Assembly (NCBI RefSeq): GCF_038594945.1
Contig: NZ_JBCFYD010000001.1
Span: 744,001-808,000, forward strand
Direction: 5' to 3'
Source of the DNA: Fodinibius sp. Rm-B-1B1-1
Lineage (GTDB): Bacteria; Bacteroidota; Rhodothermia; Balneolales; Balneolaceae
Length of the DNA stretch: 64,000 nucleotides
The position numbers and the translations under genes are program-made. Numbering within the stretch: position 1 is the stretch's first letter; the number at the start of each line of letters is the position of its first letter. A model generated the notes under the pieces. It ran no database searches, was not told where the DNA came from, and was given only the letters and a program-made list of their open reading frames with translations. Below, one piece after another: positions 40,116 through 46,047 of the stretch.

Positions 40116-40129
40116 ATGTAGTTTCTAAG

Positions 40130-40476
40130 GATGATCTGTAAGCCGAATTCTGTATCCCGACAGCTGTCAGGATGGCAATCATTTATCTGGTCCCCAAATT
40201 ACTTTGGGGCTCGAGCACTCTACCCGGCTGTATTGCGACGAGCAACGCACAGCCTGCATGAGCTTGCACCCCGTGAGGTTTGCCATGCCTCCGAATGTTA
40301 CCACCGGAGCGGTGAGCTCTTACCTCGCCTTTTCACCTTTTCCCCAACGAATCAGGGTAGTCTATTTTCTGTGGCACTGGCTAACCGGTTTCCCGGATCT
40401 TCCCGTTAGGAAGCACGGTGCTCGTAGGTGTTCGGACTTTCCTCACGCTATGCAGCGAGCGATTGCCCGATCATCC
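40130..40476 (-). ncRNA. rnpB: RNase P RNA
   Basis: The minus strand begins GGATGATCGGGCAATCGC and ends CAGATCATCC, so the outer P1 stem (GGATGATC with GATCATCC) closes the molecule. The conserved 5' region GAGGAAAGTCCGAACACC and the 3' conserved block ACAGAATTCGGCTTACAG, both universal in bacterial RNase P RNA, are in place, as is the GCCGGGTAGAG segment. The length of about 347 bases is normal. The RNA is the catalytic part of the enzyme that trims tRNA 5' ends. It has its own terminator. Confidence 0.94.
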
Positions 40477-40514
40477 TAAATAATATGTTAAAGAACATCT
40501 GCTCAAAAAACGAA

Positions 40515-42643: not shown

Positions 42644-43348
42644 ATGCCCAACGATATTTGTCACAATCTGGAAAACGTACAACAACGCATAACAAAAGCT
42701 TGCAAAGAAGCTGGCCGCAGCCCAGATGAAATTACTCTTGTTGCCGTAAGCAAAACCAAACCTGTTGATGACATCAAAGAAGCCTTTAAGTGCGGGCAGG
42801 TTCATTTTGGAGAAAATCGTGCCAGGGAATTGCAGGACAAAATGGAAGACTATGAAAATAACGAACTCCAGTGGCATATGGTCGGAAACCTGCAAACCAA
42901 TAAAATAAAATACATGGTTGAACGGGTGAACTGGATTCACTCTATAGAAAAGTCGAAGTACCTGAGTGAAATTGAAAAGCGTGCCTCCCGAATAGATCGC
43001 GTCATCAACACGTTAATACAAATAAATATTAGTGGCGAAGACCAAAAAAGTGGATGCGAACCCAAAGACCTAAAAGAAATTCTGAAATATGCACAAGGCC
43101 TTGACCATGTACGAGTTCGCGGCCTTATGGGGATGGCAACGTTTGTAGATCCCGAAGACGTGGAAAGCGTACGACCAGAATTTAAGATGCTTAGAAAGTT
43201 ACGGGATGACCATCGGAAGTACGAAGCTGAAAATGTAAGTCTTAACGAACTTTCGATGGGAATGACAAACGATATGGAAATTGCTATTGAAGAGGGCTCA
43301 ACAATGGTCCGGGTAGGACGCGCAATCTTTGGAGAACGTAACTACTAA
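42644..43348 (+). CDS. YggS-family PLP-binding protein
   Basis: The 234-residue protein has the YggS/PLPBP signature: VAVSKTKPVDDIKEA with the PLP-binding lysine K37, HFGENRARELQDK, WHMVGNLQTNK, and ELSMGMTNDMEIAIEEGSTMVRVGRAIFG at the end. YggS controls pyridoxal phosphate homeostasis and has no known catalytic reaction. The gene is upstream of the small membrane protein array with an 79-base gap, so transcriptional linkage is possible but not shown. Confidence 0.93.
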   Translation: MPNDICHNLENVQQRITKACKEAGRSPDEITLVAVSKTKPVDDIKEAFKCGQVHFGENRARELQDKMEDYENNELQWHMVGNLQTNKIKYMVERVNWIHSIEKSKYLSEIEKRASRIDRVINTLIQINISGEDQKSGCEPKDLKEILKYAQGLDHVRVRGLMGMATFVDPEDVESVRPEFKMLRKLRDDHRKYEAENVSLNELSMGMTNDMEIAIEEGSTMVRVGRAIFGERNY

Positions 43349-43427: not shown

Positions 43428-43745
43428 ATGGCAGCATGGATCTGGGTACTTATTCCGCTTGTAGCAATTATCGGTGCTTTTATTATTGAGTATCAAAAAA
43501 ATAAAATGTCGATGATGAATCGGAGCCGGCAAAATGAAGAGGAAGTCGAAGACCTTCGTAAACTTGTTAATTCGCTTAAAGGACGTATTGAAAACCTGGA
43601 AGCGATCGCGGCTGGTGAACCCGATGATTTCTCGACTGGAGCGGGACGAGGAATGGAAGAAATTGAAATTGACGACTCATCAACCGTTAAGGAAAATGAA
43701 CAGGAAGTTTCTAATCTTGCAGACAAGAAGAGGAGCAAATCATGA
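43428..43745 (+). CDS. Small membrane protein with coiled coil, PspB-like, copy A of three
   Basis: A 105-residue protein with one N-terminal transmembrane helix (about 4-22) followed by a short coiled coil (38-62) and an acidic, flexible tail. The motif LKGRIENLEAIAAGE closes the coiled coil and is repeated in the next two genes. This layout, TM segment plus RxRIxxLE-type coil, resembles the phage-shock protein PspB, but similarity is short and the assignment is inference. The stop TGA overlaps the next ATG (ATGA), so translation of copies A and B is coupled. Confidence 0.8.
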   Translation: MAAWIWVLIPLVAIIGAFIIEYQKNKMSMMNRSRQNEEEVEDLRKLVNSLKGRIENLEAIAAGEPDDFSTGAGRGMEEIEIDDSSTVKENEQEVSNLADKKRSKS

Positions 43746-44044
43746 GTGGACCTGAATTTGTCGTTGCTATTGTTGCTATTTGTTGTGCTACCGGATTAAT
43801 CAAAAAATGGATGGATTCCCGAAATAACACATCCAGTCTTACAAAAAATGAGCTCGATAATCTTCAGAAGGAACTCCATCAGTATCAAAAGGAAATGAAA
43901 AAACGAGTTCAAAATCTTGAGGCCATTGTTGCCGAAGAGGATGGTGACAATGATGAGAAATCTGGGTACCAACAAATTGAAGCCTCCTCAACTGAGGGTA
44001 ATCTAACGAATGATCTTCAACAAAAAGAACAGGTATCATCATGA
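43742..44044 (+). CDS. Small membrane protein with coiled coil, PspB-like, copy B of three
   Basis: A 100-residue protein with an N-terminal hydrophobic segment (about 6-21), a coiled coil (33-58) and an acidic tail. The shared motif reads MKKRVQNLEAIVAEE. It overlaps the flanking genes by four bases on each side (ATGA), so all three are translated as a unit. Its N-terminus, MSGPEFVVAIVAICCATGLI, differs from copy A, showing that the genes are diverged paralogues and not recent duplicates. Confidence 0.8.
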   Translation: MSGPEFVVAIVAICCATGLIKKWMDSRNNTSSLTKNELDNLQKELHQYQKEMKKRVQNLEAIVAEEDGDNDEKSGYQQIEASSTEGNLTNDLQQKEQVSS

Positions 44045-44418
44045 GTTTTGAGGAAATGGTAGTTGCCTTGGTAGGCTCTATCGGGGCATTTGCACTGGTA
44101 GGTTACCTCGCAGCAAAAACGTTCAACCTTGTTAAAACATGGATTAATCGCAATAAGGGTGGCGTTCCCGAAGAGGAATTCAATCGGCTTGCTCGCGCTT
44201 TTATGGATTATAAAAAAAATTCGCAGCGCAGACTTGAACATTTAGAAGCTATTATTGCCGATGAAGAACCCAATAGCCAAACGCAAGAACAGGAACAGAA
44301 GCCCCCTAAACAAATAGATGCTCCTAACAAGGAAATTGAAATAGAAGACTCGGAATCAGCTTCCCAAGGATCCCTATCGTCGGACCATAATAATCTGCGG
44401 AACATGCTACGGGAGTAA
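44041..44418 (+). CDS. Small membrane protein with coiled coil, PspB-like, copy C of three
   Basis: A 125-residue protein with a longer transmembrane segment (about 8-30), a coiled coil containing QRRLEHLEAIIADEE, and a Gln/Glu/Pro-rich tail. Its start overlaps copy B by four bases. It ends 50 bases before a DivIVA-domain gene that starts with its own ATG. The tail is the longest of the three, suggesting different cytoplasmic partners. No enzymatic motif is present. Confidence 0.78.
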   Translation: MSFEEMVVALVGSIGAFALVGYLAAKTFNLVKTWINRNKGGVPEEEFNRLARAFMDYKKNSQRRLEHLEAIIADEEPNSQTQEQEQKPPKQIDAPNKEIEIEDSESASQGSLSSDHNNLRNMLRE

Positions 44419-44468
44419 CCTGTTAAACAAACTATCTTTTTTACTACAAGGGTACACTTACTATTATT

Positions 44469-45095
44469 ATGAAACTTACTGCGCTGGAAATTAAACAACA
44501 GGAATTTGAAAAGTCTCTTCGTGGATATGACAAGGATGAGGTACAAGCCTTTTTAAACCTCATGTCAAATGAATGGGAGCATTTGGTAGCTAAAAACCGC
44601 GAGCTCGAAAAACGTATTGATGAGTTGGAGGAGAAACTAAAACATTACGAGCGCGTTGAGGAAGCTCTTCATGAAACCCTGCAAACGGCTAAAGAATCAG
44701 CAGAGCAAAAACTTACCGGTGCCCGTAAAGATGCTCGGAATAAGATTGAAAAGGCAGAAATGGAGGCCGAATCGATCATTCGGGAAGCTACGCAACAACG
44801 TCAGCAGGTTCGACAAAGCATTATCCGACTACTCGATCGACGCAAAGAAATTATTAGTGGTATTCGCTCGTATCTGGAAATGGCCCAGGAATCACTGGAG
44901 CAGTTTTCCAAAGATGAGGCAGCTCTCTTTGAGTTACCTGCTGATGACGATCAGTTTTCTGACAAATTAAAAGAGCAAACTGAACGTCGCCGTAAAGCCC
45001 TGCGAGATGATGACGAAGATGAGCTCGAAGATGATACTCAAACAATGCCCCCCGGTACCGAAGATATTGACGATCTTATTGATGAACTTGATTAA
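44469..45095 (+). CDS. DivIVA-domain coiled-coil protein
   Basis: The first ~60 residues form a DivIVA domain (MKLTALEIKQQEFEKSLRGY and YDKDEVQAFLNLMSNEW). A long coiled coil follows (about 65-150), with an acidic C-terminal tail. DivIVA-domain proteins bind curved membrane and organise division or envelope growth at the cell pole. Whether this one does so in a Gram-negative phylum is not known. Position just after the three small membrane proteins makes a shared envelope role plausible. No GTPase or peptidoglycan enzyme is next to it. Confidence 0.85.
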   Translation: MKLTALEIKQQEFEKSLRGYDKDEVQAFLNLMSNEWEHLVAKNRELEKRIDELEEKLKHYERVEEALHETLQTAKESAEQKLTGARKDARNKIEKAEMEAESIIREATQQRQQVRQSIIRLLDRRKEIISGIRSYLEMAQESLEQFSKDEAALFELPADDDQFSDKLKEQTERRRKALRDDDEDELEDDTQTMPPGTEDIDDLIDELD

Positions 45096-45210: not shown

Positions 45211-46047
45211 ATGCAACGAGAAACCGTAGAAGAATTTCGAAAAAAGCGAAAAGAGGCCCTTTCTTTTATACAAGGTGCTACAGACGAAAAACCTAATTAT
45301 TTAATTATTTTGGGTACTGGTCTTGGTAAGTTAGCAGATGCCATTGACATCGTTGATAGCGTATCTTATGATGATATTCCTCACTTCCCGGTATCTACGG
45401 TAGAAAGTCATGCCGGCCGACTTCTTTTTGGATCTCTAAGTGGAAAAAAAGTAGTGGCCATGCAAGGACGCTTTCATTATTACGAGGGATACAGCATGCA
45501 AGAAATTGCCTTTCCTCTCCGTGTTCTTCATGCTCTCGGAACCGAAACACTTCTTGTGAGTAATGCCTGTGGAGGGATGAACCCAAACTTTTCTCGCGGC
45601 GAAATTATGCTCATCAACGATCATATCAACATGCTCGGAGATAACCCACTTATTGGGCCCAACGATGATGAACTCGGGCCCCGCTTCCCGGATATGAGCG
45701 ACCCTTACACCGAACGACTGCGGAATGTCGCCGAAGAAGTTGCATTAGAGAAAAGTATTAAAATGCACGAAGGAGTTTATTTAGCGCTCAGCGGTCCCAC
45801 AATGGAAACGAAAGCAGAATATCGCTTCCTCCGTAATATCGGCGCCGATGTAGTAGGGATGAGTACCGTCCCCGAAGTAATCTCAGCGGTGCACATGGGC
45901 ATGGATGTGCTGGGCATTTCAGTAATTACTGATGAGTGCTTTCCCGATGCCCTTGAACCAGTAGATATTGAAGATGTATTAGAAGCAGCCGGAGAAGCCG
46001 AGCCCAAGATGACTGAAGTTATCATTGGGGTCTTGGAAAAACTATAA
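45211..46047 (+). CDS. punA: Purine nucleoside phosphorylase
   Basis: A 278-residue purine nucleoside phosphorylase of the trimeric, mammalian-like class. It phosphorolyses inosine and guanosine for purine salvage. Diagnostic blocks are ILGTGLGKLAD for phosphate binding, VESHAGRLLFG, MQGRFHYYEGYSMQEI, SNACGGMNP and GPTMETKAEYRFLRNIGADVVGMSTVPE. Purine-binding positions are in place. It is followed after 12 bases by the TonB-domain lipoprotein, an unrelated function. Length is normal. Confidence 0.93.
   Translation: MQRETVEEFRKKRKEALSFIQGATDEKPNYLIILGTGLGKLADAIDIVDSVSYDDIPHFPVSTVESHAGRLLFGSLSGKKVVAMQGRFHYYEGYSMQEIAFPLRVLHALGTETLLVSNACGGMNPNFSRGEIMLINDHINMLGDNPLIGPNDDELGPRFPDMSDPYTERLRNVAEEVALEKSIKMHEGVYLALSGPTMETKAEYRFLRNIGADVVGMSTVPEVISAVHMGMDVLGISVITDECFPDALEPVDIEDVLEAAGEAEPKMTEVIIGVLEKL

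Follow-up and report, generated by a model that had tools for sequence, protein, structure and literature searches.

What three small, overlapping membrane-protein genes are doing directly upstream of divIVA is the question raised by this locus, which lies within a 64,000-nucleotide stretch of DNA (hereafter the window) from Fodinibius sp. Rm-B-1B1-1, a salt-loving bacterium. The initial annotation had described three open reading frames of 105, 100 and 125 residues, joined by two four-base ATGA overlaps and followed 50 bases on by a gene for a DivIVA-domain protein, and this layout was borne out by the sequence. DivIVA is a scaffold protein of cell shape and division. The cluster and its neighbours are arranged as follows, with the clade names taken from the protein tree described below.

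42644-43348, + strand: yggS/ylmE, PLP-binding protein (COG0325; Pfam Ala_racemase_N, 62.5 bits), the upstream gene of the cluster
43428-43745, + strand: PspB-like protein A, 105 amino acids, 'first' clade (PspB 21.0 bits, sub-threshold; tree, dN/dS, AlphaFold)
43742-43745, + strand: A-B junction, ATGA stop/start overlap (sequence)
43742-44044, + strand: PspB-like protein B, 100 amino acids, ending LTNDLQQKEQVSS (PspB 26.7 bits, above the Pfam cut-off; tree)
44041-44044, + strand: B-C junction, ATGA stop/start overlap (sequence)
44041-44418, + strand: PspB-like protein C, 125 amino acids, 'last' clade, ending LRNMLRE (PspB 14.8 bits; AlphaFold, tail motif)
44469-45095, + strand: DivIVA-domain protein, 208 amino acids, with the conserved C-terminal PPGTEDIDDLIDELD (PF05103, 101 bits; C-termini compared)
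45211-46047, + strand: purine nucleoside phosphorylase (PNP), the downstream neighbour (PF01048, 192.9 bits)

Between the genes, no terminator-like site was found on the coding strand, and counts of such sites were not above those of shuffled sequences. Chance does not account for the gene set, as related genomes carry these genes in the same order; the DivIVA of the window shares 88% identity with its Aliifodinibius salipaludis counterpart. Three features went beyond the initial annotation, namely the upstream yggS, the terminal LxNxL of B and C, and strong purifying selection on A. Elsewhere in the window, a bacterial class A RNase P RNA (268 bits) occupies the minus strand at 40123-40478, and the plus-strand open reading frames at 40131-40479 are artefacts of reading this RNA gene as protein.

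The architecture earlier proposed for A, B and C was found in all three: a membrane segment comes first, an acidic tail last, and between them lies a coiled coil. The shared motif at its end takes the form R-x-x-(N/H)LEAI and reads GRIENLEAIAAGE, KRVQNLEAIVAEE and RRLEHLEAIIADE, respectively. Each protein begins with a hydrophobic stretch at its N-terminus, behind which basic residues follow; from their position after the helix a cytoplasmic C-terminus is predicted for all three. AlphaFold modelled A with moderate confidence (mean pLDDT 73), placing helices at residues 3-62 and 83-104, such that the protein is predicted to consist of an N-terminal membrane helix, a long coiled coil, an acidic linker and a C-terminal helix. 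The model of C, also of moderate confidence (mean pLDDT 65), has a membrane helix and a second helix (residues 3-38 and 44-74) and a disordered acidic tail (pLDDT <50).

The likeness of the shared motif to the stress protein PspB was followed up with profile searches. Against the Pfam PspB family (PF06667; cut-off 25.6 bits) B scored above the cut-off and A and C below it, and none of the three reached the 51.7-bit cut-off of the NCBIfam equivalog TIGR02976 (B 31.4, A 18.0 and C 14.0 bits). Because short coiled coils readily yield false matches, as seen with influenza HA2 in the PDB, controls were included. E. coli PspB scored 29.8 bits against the family profile, compared with a maximum of 11.4 bits for 200 copies in which its cytoplasmic part (tail) had been shuffled, and hhalign aligned the native E. 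coli protein to the family with a probability of 95.5; other membrane coiled coils scored 10.9 (YhcB/ZapG), 2.7 (FtsB) and -0.8 bits (FtsL). PspB was matched at E<=0.01 by 27 of 51 family members, any other family by at most two, and R-x-x-x-LE kept its R and E unchanged in all 51. On the strength of the shuffles and of the YhcB, FtsB and FtsL comparisons, the resemblance first remarked upon is upheld, and A, B and C are supported as relatives of PspB, though distant ones.

Other identities were set aside. The family profile retrieved influenza HA2 coiled coils from the PDB at E values of about 2e-4, and the PDB sequence matches, mostly HA2 among those listed, carry no meaning for A, B and C. 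Searches of PHROGs and PADLOC for a phage or defence gene gave only weak matches of a coiled-coil type. ZapG/YhcB (PF06295) likewise has a single membrane helix and a coiled coil, but its match was weak and confined to B within the window (20.9 bits against a cut-off of 33.5), only one of the 51 family members matched PF06295, and E. coli YhcB, scored on the family profile, did not rise above the shuffled copies of PspB.

The conservation of the arrangement was assessed by reading about 40 Balneolales divIVA loci directly, together with a class-wide search of 195 genomes. The synteny proved deep. Amongst the 81 Balneolales genomes in which both gene positions were available, 80 had a PspB-like gene directly upstream of divIVA and in its orientation, with a gap of -11 to 309 bases (median 49); in the sole exception the two genes were on different contigs. 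The position of yggS was unchanged in most Balneolales loci, and most loci of the class, like the window, have yggS and divIVA within a single string of genes. In one family and at two further loci (L034 and L104) yggS has gone from upstream, MarC-like or GalE-like genes (identified by eye) standing there instead, and the PspB-like pair is still found on divIVA. In other Rhodothermia, a lone PspB-like gene separated yggS from divIVA at four loci (L111, L119, L129 and L130), and in further members of the class yggS adjoins divIVA with no PspB-like match between them. Outside the Rhodothermia, nine weak matches were retrieved from 394 genomes of the phylum. PNP, which served as the synteny control for the divIVA neighbourhood, adjoins divIVA class-wide and is as tightly syntenic as the PspB-like genes; as it is presumably unrelated in function, position alone proves little.

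The number of PspB-like copies per locus ranged from one to four and was most often two. In a tree of 90 proteins, a split with 99% SH-aLRT support divided a 'first' clade, containing A, from a 'last' clade made up of C and every middle copy; B of the window fell among the middle copies from its Fodinibius relatives. The Balneolales thus started from A and C as a unit, and B is a lineage-specific duplicate that arose on the C side at the genus level within the Fodinibius lineage. The conserved triplet envisaged at the outset therefore gives way to an ancestral pair, and the description of the three genes as long-kept paralogues holds for A relative to B and C, but not for B relative to C. Nor are the ATGA overlaps a conserved trait, such overlaps or one-base overlaps being largely restricted to the Fodinibius lineage. 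Purifying selection on A is strong, with dN/dS of about 0.02 within the genus where dS was measurable, and A is as slow to evolve as DivIVA (pN 0.03-0.07 and 0.06-0.09, respectively), whereas B and C evolve about three to five times faster.

The extreme C-termini of the B/C clade are fixed. An [L/I]xNxL motif was present within the last 16 residues of all 51 B/C-clade proteins; the strict LxNxL form occurred in 50 of the 51, against 0.23 expected from shuffled tails, and the broader form in all 51, against 0.85 expected, although these proteins are related and the counts are not of independent events. In C, residues L119, N121 and L123 are invariant. The linker preceding LxNxL varies freely, and an invariant end behind a drifting linker looks like a docking peptide. 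The C-terminal end of A is of the VSNLADKKR or RLVNELARKK type and has been lost in some genera. That of DivIVA reads PPGxExxDDxxDELD in the Balneolales (45048-45092 in the window) and EIEKIRRILxDLD in other Rhodothermia (L106-L133).

One family (f37; L145-L149) had DivIVA in none of 15 genomes, yet kept a tandem PspB-like pair, which neighbours an rnc-like gene (for RNase III) and gcvP and is transcribed divergently from them; the wider PspB-like family thus does not need DivIVA. Two streamlined genomes (G247 and G249) lacked both DivIVA and PspB-like proteins. In a member of the Balneolaceae (G213; L163) DivIVA was present, and PspB-like proteins, PspA and PspC were all undetected; its contig breaks off upstream of divIVA, in sequence that looks rearranged. 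A second, stand-alone type of PspB-like protein, bearing xNLEAIVTSEAW and a C-terminal AxxARRxR, was observed away from divIVA in Rhodothermia and some Balneolaceae (L157:4098-4463(-), L158:3941-4309(-), L159:3996-4364(+), L150-L155, L160 and L164). Of five such proteins scanned against Pfam, one (L150) matched PspB, weakly. Both the f37 pair and the stand-alone proteins fell outside the A and C clades, in a part of the tree where deep branches are weakly resolved.

The explanation that we tentatively favour, at somewhat less than even confidence, is that A, B and C, as descendants of the PspB family, cross the inner membrane once and serve as adaptors alongside the DivIVA scaffold of their own gene cluster, their tails docking a cytosolic partner. 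As to oligomerisation, partner and site, we infer that the membrane helix and coiled coil would hold A and C, with B as an extra C-type copy, as homo- or hetero-oligomers. This is modelled on E. coli PspB, which self-associates in the membrane through its membrane region (PMC3068692) and makes partner contacts (PMC3068692, PMC2764110). The flexible, acidic cytoplasmic tails would each display a short docking peptide at the end, namely LxNxL for B and C and a helical VSNLADKKR-type end for A. These peptides may recruit a cytosolic partner to membrane sites marked by DivIVA, whether that partner is DivIVA or a factor of division or wall synthesis.

A link to DivIVA is favoured by the near-universal adjacency in the Balneolales, by the unit staying with divIVA rather than with yggS, by the single copies between yggS and divIVA in the other Rhodothermia, by the joint absence of both components from the streamlined genomes, by the invariant terminal motif of the B/C clade and by the evolutionary rate that A shares with DivIVA. 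The self-association of E. coli PspB counts in the same direction, as does the company that divIVA keeps in Gram-positives, taken with the lack of a SepF above its cut-off in this genome (both set out below). It is weakened by the f37 pair kept without DivIVA, by the equal synteny of PNP and by G213, which has DivIVA without PspB-like proteins.

The main rival, which we consider rather unlikely, is that these are functional PspB proteins, acting as envelope-stress sensors in trans with PspC and PspA, and that their seat beside divIVA is an accident of synteny. The PspB relationship itself, as upheld by the controls, is in keeping with such a role, and PspBC can act away from PspA in known systems (PMC9239133). 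The remark that no PspA or PspC lay nearby was accurate locally, but the genome encodes one PspA and two PspC elsewhere. Most sampled Balneolales with PspB-like proteins also carry PspC and PspA, and in G213 all three Psp components are missing together, yet DivIVA is kept. However, none of the loci read had a PspB-like gene next to pspA or pspC, PspA was present in all 54 other Rhodothermia tested, including those without a PspB-like match, and g88 genomes retain PspC in the absence of PspB-like proteins. As PspA and PspC are nearly universal, their co-occurrence with the PspB-like proteins cannot discriminate. E. coli PspB, moreover, has neither the acidic tail nor the terminal motif. The genome's own PspA gene (L126, G000 C1:122000-129500) has as neighbours a further coiled-coil gene and one for a membrane protein, closely resembling the PspA/Snf7/coiled-coil neighbourhood reported in Bacteroidetes (PMC11237479).

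It is also possible, but in our estimation unlikely, that A, B and C are small membrane coiled coils that do something unrelated, such as anchor a protease, an RNase or a wall enzyme through the terminal peptide, and that were expanded in the Balneolota and are carried along in a string of housekeeping genes. PNP demonstrates that conserved adjacency here does not imply a common function, and both the DivIVA-independent f37 pair and the stand-alone relatives could be read in the same way; these proteins lie outside the A and C clades, however, and the A/C unit stayed on divIVA where yggS was lost. That the three proteins are unrelated and share a generic coiled-coil motif is highly improbable, for even though the profile finds unrelated coiled coils in the PDB and A and C score under the Pfam cut-off, this is largely refuted by the shuffle and FtsL/FtsB/YhcB controls, the selective matching of PspB and the invariant R and E.

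Comparison with known systems sets the adaptor reading in context. PspB of the E. coli pspABC operon (PF06667/TIGR02976) has in common with A, B and C, on the topology predicted for these, an N-terminal membrane helix and a short cytoplasmic helix ending R-x-x-x-LE-x-I, but is 74 amino acids long, whereas A, B and C are of 100-125 amino acids with an acidic tail and terminal motif, and occur as tandem copies with no pspA or pspC neighbour. Duplication of pspB is likewise known from psp operons, along with PspC-PspB fusions (Ravi et al. 2024, PMC11237479), but those duplicates sit in operons with other Psp genes, and the main text of that study mentions neither DivIVA nor YggS. PspB has been described as rare outside proteobacteria (PMC11237479) and as present in 26% of phyla (PMC9239133). 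In Gram-positives, divIVA genes are found near yggS, yggT, sepF and ftsZ (PMC9858780). The yggS-sepF-yggT-divIVA (ylmE-sepF-ylmG-divIVA) cluster shares with the window an upstream yggS, a final divIVA and small genes between, but the middle genes of the window encode PspB-like membrane proteins, and the best match to SepF in this genome scored 15.0 bits against a cut-off of 27. A full-text search of open-licence literature returned no connection between PspB and DivIVA, the two papers retrieved having neither name in title or abstract, and no account of the DivIVA mechanism in Balneolota was found in the literature; the PspB-like/divIVA arrangement kept across the Balneolales is not described in searchable papers.

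More speculatively, and with a low likelihood in our view, the Rhodothermia may have repurposed PspB as a membrane adaptor for DivIVA; in the Balneolales an ancient A and C pair, with LxNxL on the C side, would provide the membrane link for a SepF-less polar or septal scaffold, tying envelope-stress components to division. Were the DivIVA link real, these proteins would be the first candidate membrane partners of DivIVA in the Balneolota, and would come with a concrete, testable peptide motif. Were it false, the PspB family would still be extended, as one thriving outside psp operons.
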